Part shown: positions 30,702 through 41,060 of the stretch, piece after piece | Numbering within the stretch: the stretch's first letter is position 1 | Layout of the letters: every line of letters begins with the position of its first letter | Source: Pseudomonas chlororaphis subsp. chlororaphis | Lineage (GTDB): Bacteria; Pseudomonadota; Gammaproteobacteria; Pseudomonadales; Pseudomonadaceae | NCBI RefSeq assembly: GCF_003945765.1 | Contig: NZ_CP027712.1 | Span: 1,550,001-1,614,000 of the forward strand | Reading direction: 5' to 3' | DNA: 64,000 nucleotides | Notes under the pieces: model-generated | Database searches by the model: none | Told to the model about the DNA's origin: nothing | Seen by the model: the letters and a program-made list of their open reading frames with translations, nothing else | Translations under genes and position numbers: made by a program

Positions 30702-31412
30702 ATGGAAAAACGTGAAGAACTCTACCGTGGCAAAGCCAAATCGGTTTACAAGACCGACGACGCCGATCGCCTGGTCCTGCTGTTTCGCAACGACACCTCG
30801 GCGTTCGACGGCAAGCGTATCGAGCAGCTCGATCGCAAAGGCATGGTGAACAACAAGTTCAACGCCTTCATCATGCAAAAGCTCGAAGAGGCCGGCGTGC
30901 CGACCCAATTCGACAAGCTGCTGGGCGACAACGAGTGCCTGGTGAAGAAGCTGGACATGATTCCGGTCGAGTGCGTCGTGCGTAACTACGCCGCCGGCAG
31001 CCTGGTCAAGCGCCTGGGTGTGGAAGAGGGCCTGAAGCTCAACCCTTATACCTTCGAACTGTTCCTGAAGGACGACGCCAAGGGCGACCCGTTCATCAAC
31101 GAATCCCACGTCGTGGCCTTCGGTTGGGGCACCGCCGAGCAACTGGCGCGCATGAAAGAGCTGTCGCTCAAGGTCAACGAAGTCCTGAGCAAGCTGTTCG
31201 ACGACGCTGGCCTGCTGCTGGTGGACTTCAAGCTGGAGTTCGGCGTATTCCACGGCCAGATCGTCCTGGGCGACGAGTTCAGCCCGGATGGCTGCCGCCT
31301 GTGGGACAAGGAAACCCGCAAGAAGATGGACAAGGACCGCTTCCGTCAGGGCCTCGGTGATGTGATCGAAGCCTACGAAGAAGTCGCAAACCGTCTGGGC
31401 GTACCGCTGTAA
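30702..31412 (+). CDS. purC: SAICAR synthetase
   Basis: A 236-residue ATP-grasp-like enzyme with the family motifs [28 protein letters not shown] and LVDFKLEFG. It joins aspartate to CAIR in purine synthesis. Length and motifs match bacterial PurC. It is the last host gene before tRNA-Ser. Confidence 0.97.
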
Positions 31413-31480
31413 TCGACGCAACCGACTGATAGCACGGAAAAAATTTGCCCGAGGGGCTTCGCTTCGGGCAAAGGTGCTGT

Positions 31481-31486
31481 TATGAT
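31481..31486 (+). promoter_or_regulatory. -10 element of the tRNA-Ser promoter
   Basis: TATGAT lies 10 bases before the first tRNA base and is followed by a GC-rich stringent-type discriminator (gcgcgcc). The -35 is poorly matched. Confidence 0.6.
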
Positions 31487-31496
31487 GCGCGCCGTT

Positions 31497-31586
31497 GGAG
31501 AGATGCCAGAGTGGCCGAATGGGACGGATTCGAAATCCGTTGTACCTTCGCGGGTACCTAGGGTTCGAATCCCTATCTCTCCGCCA
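31497..31586 (+). tRNA. tRNA-Ser (anticodon CGA), prophage insertion site
   Basis: A 90-base class-II tRNA. The acceptor GGAGAGA pairs with TCTCTCC, the anticodon loop is TTCGAAA (CGA), there is a long variable arm (tacc..gcgggta) and the T arm GGTTCGAATCC, with CCA encoded. Phage-type DNA begins immediately after it, so its 3' half is the probable attachment core and the phage keeps the gene whole. Confidence 0.97.
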
Positions 31587-31602
31587 TTATTGAAAAAGAT
31601 GA

Positions 31603-31640
31603 AGCCCCCGTAATCGTTACCGATTACGGGGGCTTTTTCG
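31603..31640 (+). terminator. Terminator after tRNA-Ser
   Basis: Perfect 14-bp stem agcccccgtaatcg / cgattacgggggct with loop ttac and a T run. It closes the tRNA transcript just inside or at the prophage border. Confidence 0.93.
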
Positions 31641-32042
31641 TTTTTAGCTTTTTGATTAGGGCATTTTTAGGGCAAATCGAGACCATTGAGAGCTGGCTGT
31701 AGGCCAGTTCAGATCTTCACTTACCGTTAAGGGCGGCAGGTAAGGGATTGGCGTTTTACCTGTTTTGCGACGCCTTGGGCTTTATGGCTCACCGCGGCAT
31801 ATGAACCGCACGAGACGGTCAAGGTTCGACCGCCGTAGGGCGTTCCTGGCAATGGAGTCTCAGTGAGTAAAACCAGAGGAAATGACGCCTAACGCGGGTG
31901 TCACAGTGCCACCAATATTGGTAGCGAGACGGAACTGAAAGCCATAAACTGTGCTAAATTTTAAGAAAATCTTTACGCTCGTTGATGGTTCAAGATCGAA
32001 TCTTAGAAAGCGGATTTTCTACAAACAGCAGGATGGTGTTAG
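31641..32042. promoter_or_regulatory. Leader region of the attL cassette
   Basis: About 400 bases without a supported gene. The first two thirds are GC-balanced with several short hairpins (for example ccaatattgg near 31911). The last third is AT-rich and should carry the cassette promoter. A palindrome AAGAT-cga-ATCTT at 31992-32004 lies about 40 bases before the first start codon and is a possible operator. Confidence 0.4.
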
Positions 32043-32750
32043 ATGACTGATTTGTTGATTAATGAGCAGTTGATTATTATAGGTGCCGTCGATATACCGT
32101 TGAACAACGATAATACGATGAAACTGCTGAAAGTTTTCGGTGAAATGGGCTACCTGCCTTCTGTAGTACAAGAAATTAATATGCAAACTGGTCAAGCTAT
32201 TAACCGGATGTCTTTGGTGAATAATGCTGATACCGCTATAACCTTCAATACAGATCGAATTTCATTTATTCGAAATCCAAATCCGGTTAACCCCGCACCT
32301 ACAGATTTTACTGATTTGATACGAGTGTTTGCGGATAGGCTTGCTGCAGAGTTTAATTTGAAGGCTAATCGCTGCGTTATTTCAAAAGAAATGTTGATGG
32401 GCGAATGTAGCGAAGAGAAAATGAATAAGACCGCAGCTTTGTTTCTGAATGCGGAAGCTAACGATGACGAGGATGTCTTCGAGTGGTTTGCTCGAAGGTC
32501 AATAGGATTTGAGCATAATGATGAAAAACTTTTAAAGGTTTCTGAAGTCGGCCGCGCTCAAGGTAAAATTCTCTTAAATTCAGTACTGACCGATTTCGAT
32601 AGGGTTCGAATTAAAGCTGAGGTTGGCACTGATTTTTATAATCAAGAGAATCGACTTGATATAAAAAATGTCTCGGCGTTGGTCTTAAGTTTGAGTGAGC
32701 TTCATGCGGACTTTATTTCTGGTCTTGTGAGGAATCATCATGAAAGCTGA
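32043..32750 (+). CDS. Unknown protein A of the attL cassette
   Basis: A 235-residue soluble protein, no signal or membrane segment, acidic. I do not recognise it. The middle part (about residues 50-110, INRMSLVNNADTAITF..DRISFIR then FTDLIRVFADRL) vaguely recalls TIGR04255-type accessory proteins, but this is only an impression. GC content is clearly lower than in both flanks. The ATG follows AGGAT. It overlaps the next gene by 11 bases, so the three genes form one operon. The site, between attL and the integrase, is where prophages often carry defence or fitness cargo. Confidence 0.75.
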   Translation: MTDLLINEQLIIIGAVDIPLNNDNTMKLLKVFGEMGYLPSVVQEINMQTGQAINRMSLVNNADTAITFNTDRISFIRNPNPVNPAPTDFTDLIRVFADRLAAEFNLKANRCVISKEMLMGECSEEKMNKTAALFLNAEANDDEDVFEWFARRSIGFEHNDEKLLKVSEVGRAQGKILLNSVLTDFDRVRIKAEVGTDFYNQENRLDIKNVSALVLSLSELHADFISGLVRNHHES

Positions 32751-33444
32751 GTTTTATTCAGATAATGTGCCTACCACAGTTACTATTCGGGGGGGTTATA
32801 TAAAAAAACCAGTTGTCCCGACTTCTGATGTCACTCTGACAGAGAAGCCTCGAATTGGCTTGTTTGCCAATAGTTTTGGCCGAGTAACTATTACGTCGCC
32901 CAGTTTTTTTTCTGATATCAAAACTTCACCGACAGGCATCGATGTCGAAAAGATTGGATCGTTAGGCAGAGATTCTAGTAAATACATCCAGACTAGTGAA
33001 GCCGTGAATAATCTTGCGGCTGAAAAAATCAATCTGCACGAATATCTCCTCGCATTCAGGCGTGCATCTAGATCCGGTAATTTAGAATACGGTATGGTAT
33101 CTAAATGCGATGAGCTCATTCTGCAATGGTTTGGTGAGTCAAATGAACAGCTTGGTAGGATAATCAGTCATATATTTATACAGTCTATGAATGATAAAAA
33201 TATTCTATTGTTTTTGTTAAAGGCTATAAGCAATGTTTCCTACGCAGCGATCTATCCTTTTGGGCAAACTGTAGCTGTTGCTGCATTGGTCAATCGAGAT
33301 ATCGAAGTAATCGAAGGGGGCATACGAGCATTCGAAAACTGGGGTAGCCGAGATGGGATTTCCGTATTGGAAAATACCAAATTGGCATTTGACTGGTTGG
33401 AAGTCTATCGTCGGCAGACTATAGATTATTTGCGAGAGTTCTAA
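32740..33444 (+). CDS. Unknown protein B of the attL cassette
   Basis: A 234-residue protein, not recognised. The first hundred residues look mixed and beta-rich (TTVTIRGGYIKKP; GRVTITSPSFF). The rest is helical, with a hydrophobic helix pair (NILLFLLKAISNVSYAAIYPFGQTVAVAALVN) followed by GIRAFENWGSRDGISVLENT, a pattern that could be HEAT-like. No catalytic motif is evident. It starts within gene A and ends two bases before gene C, so translation is coupled. Confidence 0.75.
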   Translation: MKAEFYSDNVPTTVTIRGGYIKKPVVPTSDVTLTEKPRIGLFANSFGRVTITSPSFFSDIKTSPTGIDVEKIGSLGRDSSKYIQTSEAVNNLAAEKINLHEYLLAFRRASRSGNLEYGMVSKCDELILQWFGESNEQLGRIISHIFIQSMNDKNILLFLLKAISNVSYAAIYPFGQTVAVAALVNRDIEVIEGGIRAFENWGSRDGISVLENTKLAFDWLEVYRRQTIDYLREF

Positions 33445-33445
33445 G

Positions 33446-33940
33446 ATGGAGCTAATACGTAAAATTAGTTTGGCTAAATGGAAGAACTCTCTCGCTGTTG
33501 GTCCTGAATATATCAGTGCAGATGCAGTAACAGGATGCTTGCGTACATCTGAAAATACTCTGTCTGTATGGAAGAATGAAAGTGAAGTTGAGTATGATCA
33601 GTCAGTACTCGCGCTTCTAGCATCCCTGACAAGCATGGAAACGATCGACATAGTTCGTTTGGGTGTTGAGGAGCTTGAACAGAAAAATCTCGAGCTTGCA
33701 GAAACTGAAGGTGATACACGGGCCAAGGGTCTAGAGAATTTGCATCGAGATATCATTAATCTCGATCACGCTGCTCTAAAAAGCGTCGCTGAGATAGTTA
33801 AGGCTAAAGTTGCTGAGAATAAGTCCATTCGGTTTCGTAAGCCGGACATTAAGGTTATTCTAAATAAAGCTGTCGCCGAAGGCGTGATTGATATTGATCT
33901 GCTGCCTGATAAGGTTCGCGCCGAATTACTTAAAAAATGA
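33446..33940 (+). CDS. Unknown protein C of the attL cassette
   Basis: A 164-residue mainly helical protein, not recognised, with a central Glu/Leu-rich stretch (GVEELEQKNLELAETEGD) likely to form a coiled coil and a basic C-terminal part. It starts one base after the stop of gene B. It is followed by a good hairpin terminator, which defines the cassette as A-B-C. It may be a small partner or regulator of A and B. Confidence 0.72.
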   Translation: MELIRKISLAKWKNSLAVGPEYISADAVTGCLRTSENTLSVWKNESEVEYDQSVLALLASLTSMETIDIVRLGVEELEQKNLELAETEGDTRAKGLENLHRDIINLDHAALKSVAEIVKAKVAENKSIRFRKPDIKVILNKAVAEGVIDIDLLPDKVRAELLKK

Positions 33941-33995
33941 GTGCCGTAGATTTGGCGTGCTATTGAGTCGTATTGCTGGCGAAGTACCATAATTT

Positions 33996-34045
33996 CCCTC
34001 CATCGGATGCTATTTGCGATGGAGGGTTGAGTTTTATTTTTCAAA
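33996..34045 (+). terminator. Terminator of the attL cassette
   Basis: Stem ccctccatcg / cgatggaggg with an 11-base loop, followed by ttgagttttattttt. It separates the cassette from the convergent integrase gene. Confidence 0.85.
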
Positions 34046-34079
34046 GTGGGAGATGTCTAATCAGACAAATGCTCCCGAC

Positions 34080-35315
34080 TTAATCTCCTTTATCTCTGAA
34101 ACCTAACATTTTCGATACTAAACCAGCCATGCTCTTGGTGTCTTTTGGTATCCATCTACCATAATGTTTTCTCACCATCGTAGTGTCTGCATGTCCGAGC
34201 TGTCTTGCAACCCACTCGACCGGCACATAGCTCGAGAGCATCTGGCTGGCGAATGTGTGGCGGCACTGGTTAGCCCCGCGGTGCCGGACCCCTATTTTTT
34301 TCAGATGAGCGGTAAACCACTTGCTCAGGGTTTTGCCGTTCCAAAGCATGGCGCTTTTTGAGTTGCGGAAGAGTAAGCGGACCTTCTGTTTCTTCGCTGT
34401 GATGTTGTCGCGCTGTATGACTTTGATTTCAACGGCCGGTGCGGCCTGAGCTGCAGCGACAATCTCGCGCATCAGTTCGAGTGCTGGGTCTATCAGCTCG
34501 ACGATCCGATTCCGTGATCGTTCCTTTGGCACCTTGAACTCTCCCACGACCAAGGCCCGGCGCACGTGAATGGTACCGGCGATGAGGTCTATGTCCTCCA
34601 GGGCCAGGGCGATGATTTCCGACATCGACAGGCCGGTCCAACAGTTGAAGGCGAGCATGCGAGCATCGGCCAAGCGCTCCGGGTCGCCCGTTGCAATCAG
34701 CTCGATTTCCTCGCGGCTGAACGGATCGGCGTGTTCTGAGTCGGAATCGGTGCCGACGTTGCTGATCCGGTCCAAGGGATTTGCTTTCAGGATCCCATCG
34801 CCGAAGGCGTCCGCCCAGACTCCGCGCACAATTGTGAAAATATCATTCACGGTCTTCGGGGCCAGGCCTTGCTTGAGCAGTTGCGCCTGGAACAGTTCGA
34901 GGTCGCTCTTACTGATATCGACGATACGTCTTTTACCGAACTTCGTGTCGACGTGTTTGGATTTGCTGACGTAGTTGTCGACTGTGCTGGTGGCGCGGAG
35001 GGCGCGTTGTACTTCCAGCCATCTTTCGATTCCTTCCTTGATGGTGCGTTTTGTCGAGTGGCCGCCCGTGCCCGAGAACATTGCCGCCCTCGGCGAGTCG
35101 GGGAAGTGCGCGGCGTAATCAAAGCGACCTTCCGCGATTTCGGTCAGGATCGTCCGGCGCTTGTTATCGGCGTAGGCAATAGATGCCTTGTTGATTTTGA
35201 TAATGCCGGGCACAGGTTCACGGCAGCGTTGCCCGTAGAGCATGAACCAGATGCGCAGCTTCTTTCCGTTCAGCTCCACGCCAGTGGGCAGCTTCTCCCC
35301 GATCTTCTCTGTCAT
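34080..35315 (-). CDS. int: Phage tyrosine integrase
   Basis: A 411-residue recombinase with an N-terminal arm-binding region, a SAM-like core-binding domain (about 100-190) and a catalytic domain. CRHTFASQML gives the second Arg-His pair, LGHADTT the following His, and VRKHYGRW the Tyr nucleophile. At the first catalytic Arg position the sequence reads TGLSMSEI, with Ser where TGLR is usual. The start MTEKIGEK overlaps the upstream excisionase stop as ATGA. It should act at the tRNA-Ser site. Confidence 0.93.
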   Translation of the reverse strand: MTEKIGEKLPTGVELNGKKLRIWFMLYGQRCREPVPGIIKINKASIAYADNKRRTILTEIAEGRFDYAAHFPDSPRAAMFSGTGGHSTKRTIKEGIERWLEVQRALRATSTVDNYVSKSKHVDTKFGKRRIVDISKSDLELFQAQLLKQGLAPKTVNDIFTIVRGVWADAFGDGILKANPLDRISNVGTDSDSEHADPFSREEIELIATGDPERLADARMLAFNCWTGLSMSEIIALALEDIDLIAGTIHVRRALVVGEFKVPKERSRNRIVELIDPALELMREIVAAAQAAPAVEIKVIQRDNITAKKQKVRLLFRNSKSAMLWNGKTLSKWFTAHLKKIGVRHRGANQCRHTFASQMLSSYVPVEWVARQLGHADTTMVRKHYGRWIPKDTKSMAGLVSKMLGFRDKGD

Positions 35316-35566
35316 GGTTGGCCGGCCATCCACTTTTCGATTTCCACGCGGTTGTAAACAATCACGTTGGCGGGATCGGTGCGCCATTGTTTCTCTTCCA
35401 GCCAGATGCCGCGATCTCGATACTTCCGCACGGCCTCAGTGCTCAGTCCGAAAACGGGGAACAGTAATTCCTTTCTAATCCATACGGCGGGTGTAATAAG
35501 AAGTTGCACCGCTTCGGAAGTTTGATTGCTTGCTTCGTGAATGGGTTTAACTTGTTGCTTGGCCAT
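35312..35566 (-). CDS. Excisionase-like DNA-binding protein
   Basis: An 84-residue protein with a winged-helix pattern (FPVFGLSTEAVRKYRDRGIWLEEKQW, then VYNRVEIEKWM) typical of phage excisionases that bend att DNA. It overlaps the integrase start by four bases, the standard xis-int arrangement. The N-terminal 25 residues look disordered. Confidence 0.82.
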   Translation of the reverse strand: MAKQQVKPIHEASNQTSEAVQLLITPAVWIRKELLFPVFGLSTEAVRKYRDRGIWLEEKQWRTDPANVIVYNRVEIEKWMAGQP

Positions 35567-39265: not shown

Positions 39266-39982
39266 GTGACTGAGATTTGTAAGTGTAAGCGTCAAGATTC
39301 TTTAAGTGTTTTTTTTCAGAATTACATTGGACATTTTGTTACTTTGCTTGCGGTAGTTATTACTGTCATTGGTGGATTCTTGACGTTCAATCATCAATGG
39401 GAAATGAATCGTCATGATCGATTGGTATCGGATGCGCATAAGGTTTCTGATGAGCTGACCGTGTTATTGTTCAACGATCTTAAATACTTGAAGGTTCTAA
39501 ATGATAGCATTTCAAAGGGTGAAGATTGGGAGAGGTTTGTGCAAGGCCCATATGCAGAGTATCTAACTCGCAAGGAGGTTTGGCGCAGAGATGTAATCAT
39601 TATGCATTATAAAGTCGAACGCTACTTCGGTAGCGACATTGCAAATGATCTCATAAATACCGAAAAGCTCATTTCTGGCGCTTCTTATGAGGATCTCAGT
39701 AGTCCCTCTCCTTGCGCTACGCCAGCAGATGCTGAGCGCAGCCTTATGGTGACGTCTGACGTGATTGAGTGCCAGATCCGCATGGCTGCTTATCTGAAGA
39801 TGAAACTATCGAAAGATTCAGACGACGTATTTGGTGATATCACTCGAGATATTAACCTGTCTCGAAATAACGCTGAGAATATGAGATTGTATGACAGAGG
39901 TATCGTTTCTTATATCCGAGCGATTAATTCAAGGCTGACTAGTTTGGGGGAGGTAAGTGTTCAGCCGCTAATTGATAACTAG
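39266..39982 (+). CDS. Single-pass membrane moron protein
   Basis: A 238-residue protein with one membrane segment (about 21-41, NYIGHFVTLLAVVITVIGGFLTF) after a short basic Cys-containing N-terminus, then a large helical domain. GC content is markedly lower than in the neighbours. It is transcribed against both flanking regulatory genes and sits between the repressor and the early operon, the usual place for lysogenic-conversion or superinfection-exclusion genes. The start is GTG behind GGGGAT. No family recognised. Confidence 0.72.
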   Translation: MTEICKCKRQDSLSVFFQNYIGHFVTLLAVVITVIGGFLTFNHQWEMNRHDRLVSDAHKVSDELTVLLFNDLKYLKVLNDSISKGEDWERFVQGPYAEYLTRKEVWRRDVIIMHYKVERYFGSDIANDLINTEKLISGASYEDLSSPSPCATPADAERSLMVTSDVIECQIRMAAYLKMKLSKDSDDVFGDITRDINLSRNNAENMRLYDRGIVSYIRAINSRLTSLGEVSVQPLIDN

Positions 39983-39988
39983 CACGAG

Positions 39989-40720
39989 TTATTCAGGGAT
40001 GAATGAGCCTACCACCTTTCCGCAAATGTGCGTTTCTTCTGTGATGTCAATGATTGGATATTGCGGATTGATTGGCCTTAGGAACTGACGTCCTGCATCT
40101 TCGACCAGAATTTTAAATGTAGCTTCATTGGTGCGAGGAACTCTTGCAATAACTCTATCGCCAGTCTTGGTTTCTGCTTCAGGGTCCACAAATAGGATGC
40201 AGCCAGCCGGGTAGCTTCTCCCCGGTCCAGGATTCGTCATCGAGTCGCCAAGGACTTTTAGTGCGTATCCGTGGTTGCTGATCGGAACAGGGCAAGAAAG
40301 CCAAGAATCAGCATCATATGATTCAAAATTTGAAATCGCCTCGCTCCAAGCGCCTGCCTGCACCCACGAGATCAATGGAACCTTGCCAAAGCGTTGGTTA
40401 ACTTCACTAACGTTACTCTCGTCACTGACAACCAGCTGGCGCACATTGCTTTCGCCGGTCTGTTCTTTCGGCAGTACGCCATATTCAAGCCACTCCCGGC
40501 GTACTTTCAGCCAGGAGCAAAGTGCAACCATACTGTCTGCTTCGGCGATGGCTTCGCCGTTGAGCCATTTACTGACAGCTTGAGTTGTCTTATCGACCCC
40601 CAAACTTTTCAATTTACGATGGATATCGACCCCTCGGCCTCGGCTGCGTACGCCGGCATCGTCGAGAGCTTCATGAAGGCGCGAGCTGAAAGCGGCGCGG
40701 AGTGCATTTTTATCAACCAT
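39989..40720 (-). CDS. LexA/CI-type S24 phage repressor (PrtR-like)
   Basis: A 243-residue repressor. The N-terminal helix-turn-helix (about 20-75, HRKLKSLGVDKTTQAVSKWLNGEAIAEAD) is followed by an S24 peptidase domain. The domain has the cleavage site Ala-Gly in SWVQAGAWSEA, the catalytic Ser in VLGDSMTNPGPG and the catalytic Lys in ATFKILVEDAG. RecA-stimulated self-cleavage after DNA damage should lift repression. The start MVDKNAL is taken because it begins the DNA-binding domain; the frame is open to 40876 across the operator. It closely resembles PrtR in layout. Confidence 0.93.
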   Translation of the reverse strand: MVDKNALRAAFSSRLHEALDDAGVRSRGRGVDIHRKLKSLGVDKTTQAVSKWLNGEAIAEADSMVALCSWLKVRREWLEYGVLPKEQTGESNVRQLVVSDESNVSEVNQRFGKVPLISWVQAGAWSEAISNFESYDADSWLSCPVPISNHGYALKVLGDSMTNPGPGRSYPAGCILFVDPEAETKTGDRVIARVPRTNEATFKILVEDAGRQFLRPINPQYPIIDITEETHICGKVVGSFIPE

Positions 40721-40768
40721 GGGTTGAGAGTGCCACGGAGCTTGCGCAATAGTCAGTTGATGTTTAAT

Positions 40769-40785
40769 ATCAACTCCAGGTTGAT
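40769..40785. promoter_or_regulatory. Repressor operator between cI and cro
   Basis: ATCAAC-tccag-GTTGAT, a perfect 6-5-6 palindrome of the same design as the pair at 39122-39159. A half-site GTTGAT lies at 40756-40761. It sits about 49 bases before the repressor start and 15 bases before cro, able to control both. Confidence 0.85.
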
Positions 40786-40799
40786 AAATGGAGGGTGTC

Positions 40800-41060
40800 A
40801 TGCTGGACCCCGCAGATTTTCCGAATGCTATTGCGTTCGCTTTTGAAGCTGTAGGCGGCATTGGGGCCGCCGCCAAGGTCTGTGACAGGAGTTATCAGGC
40901 GCTGAACAAATGGCGTCAGGCTGCTTGTTTGCCACGAACCGACTACACCGGTGAGACCCAGTACGCTGTGCTCTTGGCAACAGAGGCTAAGCAGAAGGGG
41001 AACGGCTTTGAACCGGCCTGGCTGCTGAGCGCATCTTCACCACATAGAGCTGCCGCATAG
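40800..41060 (+). CDS. Cro-like DNA-binding protein
   Basis: An 86-residue protein with helix-turn-helix AVGGIGAAAKVCDRSYQALNKWRQ, divergent from the S24 repressor and behind the shared operator. The ATG follows GGAGGGTGTC. By position it is the lytic-side Cro/CI-family regulator. Confidence 0.85.
   Translation: MLDPADFPNAIAFAFEAVGGIGAAAKVCDRSYQALNKWRQAACLPRTDYTGETQYAVLLATEAKQKGNGFEPAWLLSASSPHRAAA

Follow-up and report, generated by a model that had tools for sequence, protein, structure and literature searches.

Three consecutive genes in a prophage of Pseudomonas chlororaphis subsp. chlororaphis, here called A, B and C, form a putative self-contained and horizontally moving anti-phage defence module. 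We assign this reading, which draws on genomic context, a probability of roughly 0.68. The genes are probably anti-phage because they travel together widely and because they sit in a slot that sometimes holds defence genes. They were analyzed within a window of 64,000 nucleotides (contig NZ_CP027712.1, positions 1,550,001 to 1,614,000 of the forward strand), the term denoting the whole stretch of DNA studied. The main features are listed in Table 1.

Table 1. Features of the A-B-C region, in window coordinates.
Feature	Position	Strand	Length	Remarks
tRNA-Ser (CGA), integration target	31497..31586	+		ARAGORN
attL, direct repeat	31561..31594	.	34 bp	Exact second copy lies 40.2 kb away in this genome
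Hairpin with T tail behind the tRNA	31601..31636	+		In the left flank common to sister elements
Cargo	31677..34093	.	2417 bp	Present here, missing from empty sister elements; GC 0.42
Leader of A	31677..32042	+	366 bp	Without obvious gene or promoter match
Gene A	32043..32750	+	235 aa	ORF
Gene B	32740..33444	+	234 aa	ORF; 11-base overlap with A
Gene C	33446..33940	+	164 aa	ORF; 1-base gap after B
Intrinsic terminator of the operon	33996..34041	+		10-pair stem at 33996-34026, then U-rich tail; z = -3.7
Prophage tyrosine integrase	34080..35387	-		Convergent with A-B-C; family assigned from sequence by eye

The ORF coordinates bear out a preliminary description of this DNA, according to which the three genes overlap or abut and point against the integrase. 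Their low GC content, also claimed there, sets them apart from their surroundings: A, B and C have values of 0.393, 0.406 and 0.424 (0.41 for the whole operon), compared with 0.605 for the window and 0.557 for the integrase gene. Just three of 1243 sliding stretches of operon length in the window are equally AT-rich, and the minimum GC content among stretches entirely beyond 31500-34200 is 0.474. When the same bases were shuffled 300 times, the longest open run on the operon strand reached 141 codons; three tandem ORFs of 164-235 amino acids are therefore not due to chance. The operon had further been credited with its own leader and terminator. The terminator and a gene-free leader are present, and no promoter-like site lies inside the leader; the count of such sites across the region is at the level of shuffled sequence. 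The terminator is not among the matches of a consensus terminator scan, and in an Rfam scan of 31300-34300 the tRNA alone reached the gathering score.

The element holding A-B-C is an integrated prophage of about 40 kb. This is evident from the repeat at the 3' end of the tRNA-Ser gene, which recurs exactly and confirms the attachment site proposed earlier, and from the DNA similarity of the interval between the repeats to the tail sheath and tail tube genes of phage PS17. The host genome contains one copy of A-B-C. Elsewhere in the window, another AT-rich patch (39266-39982, plus strand) has a membrane-bound-looking ORF, beside which lies a repressor-like ORF (39989-40876, minus strand; S24/LexA-like by eye).

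Comparison with related prophages shows that the point between the attachment site and the integrase is a slot of exchangeable cargo. Of 398 genomes of the genus, 109 contain an integrase relative at E <= 1e-30, counting the genome studied here, and the att side of the best 20 others (63-82% identical) was collected as a set of sister elements. Alignment to the window succeeded on both sides for 19; the other, L171, was set aside for an att-side match on the other strand. On the left, the common flank stops at 31674-31677 in 15 of the 19, directly after the hairpin behind the tRNA, and on the right it starts at 34090-34099 in 16, at the extreme end of the integrase gene. Seven slots are empty (L156, L160, L161, L165, L170, L172, L173), with 31-161 bp separating the matched flanks. 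The other 12 are filled with 0.7-3.0 kb of cargo, representing about ten kinds as judged by eye. HMM searches for A, B and C found none of them in the 20 sister elements.

Part of this cargo is related to defence genes. We scanned ten cargo proteins from eight of the 12 filled sites with PADLOC and obtained matches to known or candidate defence models at three of the eight (raw count): NsnA of Menshen (2.3e-50) and PD-T4-2_A (1.5e-29) in L164; an endonuclease effector (1.5e-10), PDC-M68A (3.1e-9) and PDC-M68B (4.9e-9) in L157; and PDC-S60 (2.7e-28) in L159, the PDC families being candidate defence families and not tested systems. The slot therefore accepts defence genes among other cargo. A relative of the first gene of Menshen (NsnA)/PD-T4-2 thus fills the same slot in a sister element, but no sequence relation between that system and A, B or C was found. 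No defence model was matched at the other five scanned sites (L158, L163, L166, L169, L174); this includes the one protein scanned from L174, whose cargo looks phosphoribosyltransferase- or DprA-like by eye. Among other readings made by eye, Pfam confirmed DUF4325 in the L166 cargo and did not confirm two defence-like names, DUF4062 in L159 and DUF3800 in L169. Cargo proteins without a known function in the sister elements include those of 778 amino acids in L158, 302 in L163 and 382 in L169.

The trio is conserved across many phyla and is inherited as a unit. GTDB species genomes were scanned with patterns from a C profile, which returned 50 candidate stretches, 27 of them encoding C; because such a scan covers patterns only, C is encoded at 27 loci at least. 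Two previously collected loci, L004 and L006, lie within L061 (Azomonas agilis) and L050, and were counted once. By record title, the loci belong to Bacteroidota, Bacillota, Planctomycetes, Chloroflexi (Dehalococcoidia), Spirochaetes, WOR-3, KSB1, Victivallales and several classes of Proteobacteria. B is located just upstream of C in all 27, with a weak call in L060 (6.5e-4) and incomplete ones in L047 and L058. A is upstream of B in 23 of the 27 (22 by HMM, among them L040 with a contig-end fragment, and L056 by eye); searches for it in L042, L057, L060 and L058 gave nothing, the contig of L058 starting inside B. The co-occurrence of the three genes elsewhere, which the preliminary description had named as a check, is therefore clear. 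Identity to the window over the distant loci is 25-39% for C, 16-28% for B and 11-25% for A. In the 23 cases with all three genes (the window, one phage and 21 genomes), correlations between the distance matrices are 0.87 for A-B, 0.81 for A-C and 0.78 for B-C, values that none of 5000 permutations reached. The trio is therefore an old coherent unit that moves as a unit. C is the right bait for such searches because A and B diverge too fast: a genome scan with B alone gave no match, nor did tblastn searches of phages with A and with B.

Mobile elements carry the trio as well. Four Acinetobacter phage records came up when phages were searched by tblastn with C; Ab105-1phi has the order A-B-C close to the end of the phage record, and Acba_1 retains remnants of A and C only. 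Decayed Acinetobacter copies include L003, which consists of A and C remnants only. C is encoded at 27 loci in IMG/VR, which amount to two or so independent cases because L007 is the window copy (100% identity), L008-L030 form a single near-identical lineage with all three genes, and L031-L033 are cut copies. L032 and L033, from Acinetobacter phages or prophages, have A, B and a C cut to 62 amino acids; the sole remnant in L031 is C cut to 130 amino acids, near transposase ORFs. Nine PLSDB records match, seven of which are plasmids (three Klebsiella, two Enterobacter, two Acinetobacter). The other two, NZ_CP077849.1 and NZ_CP064203.1, are A. baumannii records of chromosome size (3.66 and 3.97 Mb) inside the plasmid collection. 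Five of the seven plasmids were read (4.4, 8.1, 7.5, 134 and 5.0 kb), using profiles built without them, and all five contain A, B and C in order, the A frame of L038 being cut by the record start. In the smallest carrier read, a 4375-bp Klebsiella plasmid, A-B-C is the sole clear cargo.

The trio is a conserved, sporadic and mobile multi-gene unit. It is rare, occurring in two of 298 family genomes and two of 398 phylum genomes, with the genome studied here included in both counts. At the DNA level, the Klebsiella version had no match in 5,426 E. coli genomes.

The surroundings of distant copies vary. Neighbour scans covered ten of the 27 GTDB loci, picked by eye; the other 17 were only viewed, and look like ordinary chromosome. 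In L053 (Planococcus), the order is HsdR, HsdM, HsdS, A-B-C and then a PDC-S26 nuclease, with matches to type IV restriction (weak, 4e-7) and NERD (2.6e-8) further on. A-B-C lies directly behind type III Mod and Res in L065, and a DNA methyltransferase is upstream of the trio in L062 and L056. As a result, association with known defence genes, or with a slot that holds them, applies to part of the copies: L053, L065 and the window slot with its three of eight scanned sites. An integrase lies beside the trio in L043, L054 and L045. L043 is an independent case of the layout found in the window, with a tRNA (Arg), A-B-C and a convergent integrase in succession; both the tRNA and the integrase differ from those of the window. 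Phage capsid (L039) and plasmid replication and resolvase genes (L059) were found near other copies, and the one neighbour protein scanned in L061 had no match. PIN/VapC-like ORFs, recognized by eye, lie directly downstream of the trio in two unrelated hosts (L050, 4574-4948, minus strand; L061, 10733-11113, minus strand).

The three proteins carry no established annotation. The window proteins have no match above the curated cut-offs of Pfam or NCBIfam, and comparison with the defence catalogue PADLOC-DB 2.0.0 gave no credible match for 19 trio proteins, the one Cas7c match (0.0098) being at chance level. In PHROGs, each of the three matches families to which no function is assigned (C 1.6e-34, B 1.8e-7, A 1.3e-4), and A, B and C of several members match PHROGs 19817, 21208 + 14576 and 10743, respectively, which are phage protein clusters only. 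The operon was thus rightly called unrecognized with respect to Pfam, NCBIfam and PADLOC, but not with respect to PHROGs. That none of the genes resembles a known phage structural or replication gene was upheld, as profile searches revealed no structural, replication or transposition homology. The profile and structure searches proposed earlier yielded these PHROGs matches and a weak fold match for A, but no named function.

The very confidently predicted structure of C (pLDDT 96.3, from 29 sequences) has no PDB match at E <= 0.001 in Foldseek; the best BFVD match is A0A3G5AC22, an uncharacterized protein of the giant virus Hyperionvirus (E 0.016, probability 0.98, TM 0.40/0.49). Eight residues are invariant in all 29 sequences: R5, W12, D26, T29, T34, S40, W42 and H100. 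Conservation of R5-W12 and A25-T34 is partly selected because these stretches served as search bait; S40, W42 and H100 lie outside the bait, and all eight are also kept in the plasmid sequences, a set retrieved by tblastn. A RES or ADP-ribosyltransferase-like toxin, an idea prompted by the strand order and an LVRKI...LSVW pattern, was not supported for C (hhalign probability 1.3% against nine RES sequences; NarE at only E 1.5).

A was modelled from 24 sequences (pLDDT 89.6) and conserves R110, E161, D193-x-N195-T196 and R204. Its best PDB match is trypanosome AdoMetDC/prozyme (E 9e-6, probability 1.00, TM 0.35), and it also matches phage SAM lyase (E 0.011, probability 0.93). The A fold may therefore resemble these enzymes, a weak lead, yet the TM-scores of its matches are low (0.21-0.35) and an AdoMetDC relationship was not supported by profile comparison (hhalign probability 0.1%, 13 AdoMetDC sequences). 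An internal repeat in A was not significant. B has a variable N-terminus and a conserved C-terminus that looks helix-rich; a profile search of the PDB found nothing significant for it (best E 0.016 and 0.088). No defence protein is among the fold matches of A and C.

Two further resemblances deserve mention. A appears to be a distant relative of TIGR04255, an uncharacterized and sporadic NCBIfam family, as in L004 the A protein scores 33.1 bits, above the curated cut-off of 30; however, the window A has no match, and comparing profiles with 12 members gave a weak result (probability 27%). TIGR04255 loci were rejected as further carriers of the trio, with B or C in none of 25 over the roughly 1.5 kb examined. 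Rousset 2022 (PMC9122126) describes a three-gene system without clear domain in the P2 hotspot that protects against P1. By that description, it resembles A-B-C in having three small, domain-less genes in a variable prophage slot, although the likeness is one of description only. TIGR04255 and the accession and cluster names of the trio are not mentioned in the literature searched, outside which lie subscription journals and bioRxiv; this is not proof that the system is undescribed. Nor did a phage-resistance test of any trio member turn up in these searches.

The fold matches of A bear on a different reading, namely that A-B-C is a counter-defence system shielding its mobile element from host restriction or immunity, for example by acting on S-adenosylmethionine or restriction enzymes. 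Anti-restriction genes usually ride on prophages and small plasmids, some trio copies adjoin restriction genes, and both SAM lyase and AdoMetDC are among the A matches. We nevertheless consider this reading unlikely, given the low TM-scores and negative AdoMetDC comparison, the chromosomal copies that have no visible mobile genes around them, and the fact that known anti-restriction needs fewer than three co-evolving proteins. Residence on small plasmids and prophages, together with the strict joint inheritance of the genes, would also fit an addiction or toxin-antitoxin-like maintenance module with C as the toxin. This is improbable for a set of three genes of 160-250 amino acids each, without toxin, antitoxin or DNA-binding families in Pfam, NCBIfam or PADLOC, and present in many chromosomes. 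Equally improbable is a prophage or host function unrelated to other phages (lysogeny control, host fitness): much sister-element slot cargo lacks a known function, but the trio is widespread outside phages, on plasmids and in restriction gene clusters, unlike a gene set of one phage.

Anti-phage defence is the best explanation of these observations. The preliminary description had considered the layout consistent with a multi-protein defence module, and this is partly supported, by the conserved co-occurrence, the cargo slot and the restriction-modification neighbours of some distant relatives, though not by any PADLOC match. In the proposed mechanism, the module would ride as a cassette in the slot between att and integrase, its proteins would work together in the cytoplasm, and the trio would protect the lysogen against other phages. 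The route may be abortive infection, to which we give less weight than to defence itself. A could act as the sensor, in keeping with its large two-sheet fold and fast evolution; B as an adaptor, link or inhibitor, given its variable N-terminus and conserved C-terminus; and C, with its invariant polar residues, as an enzyme that stops the infected cell. This division of roles is a guess that we hold tentatively. More doubtful is a fuller version, in which the trio would be a cross-phyla immune system, C a new-fold enzyme (R-D-T-T-S-H) and A an AdoMetDC/SAM-lyase-like sensor of phage interference with S-adenosylmethionine or a related nucleotide.

Being widely spread, fixed in order and unnamed, this gene set stands out as a strong candidate for an immune system not yet described, one whose enzyme would have an unknown fold. 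In addition, the slot offers a route to more systems, since at one exact point the sister prophages that share this integrase hold further cassettes, some of them unknown.
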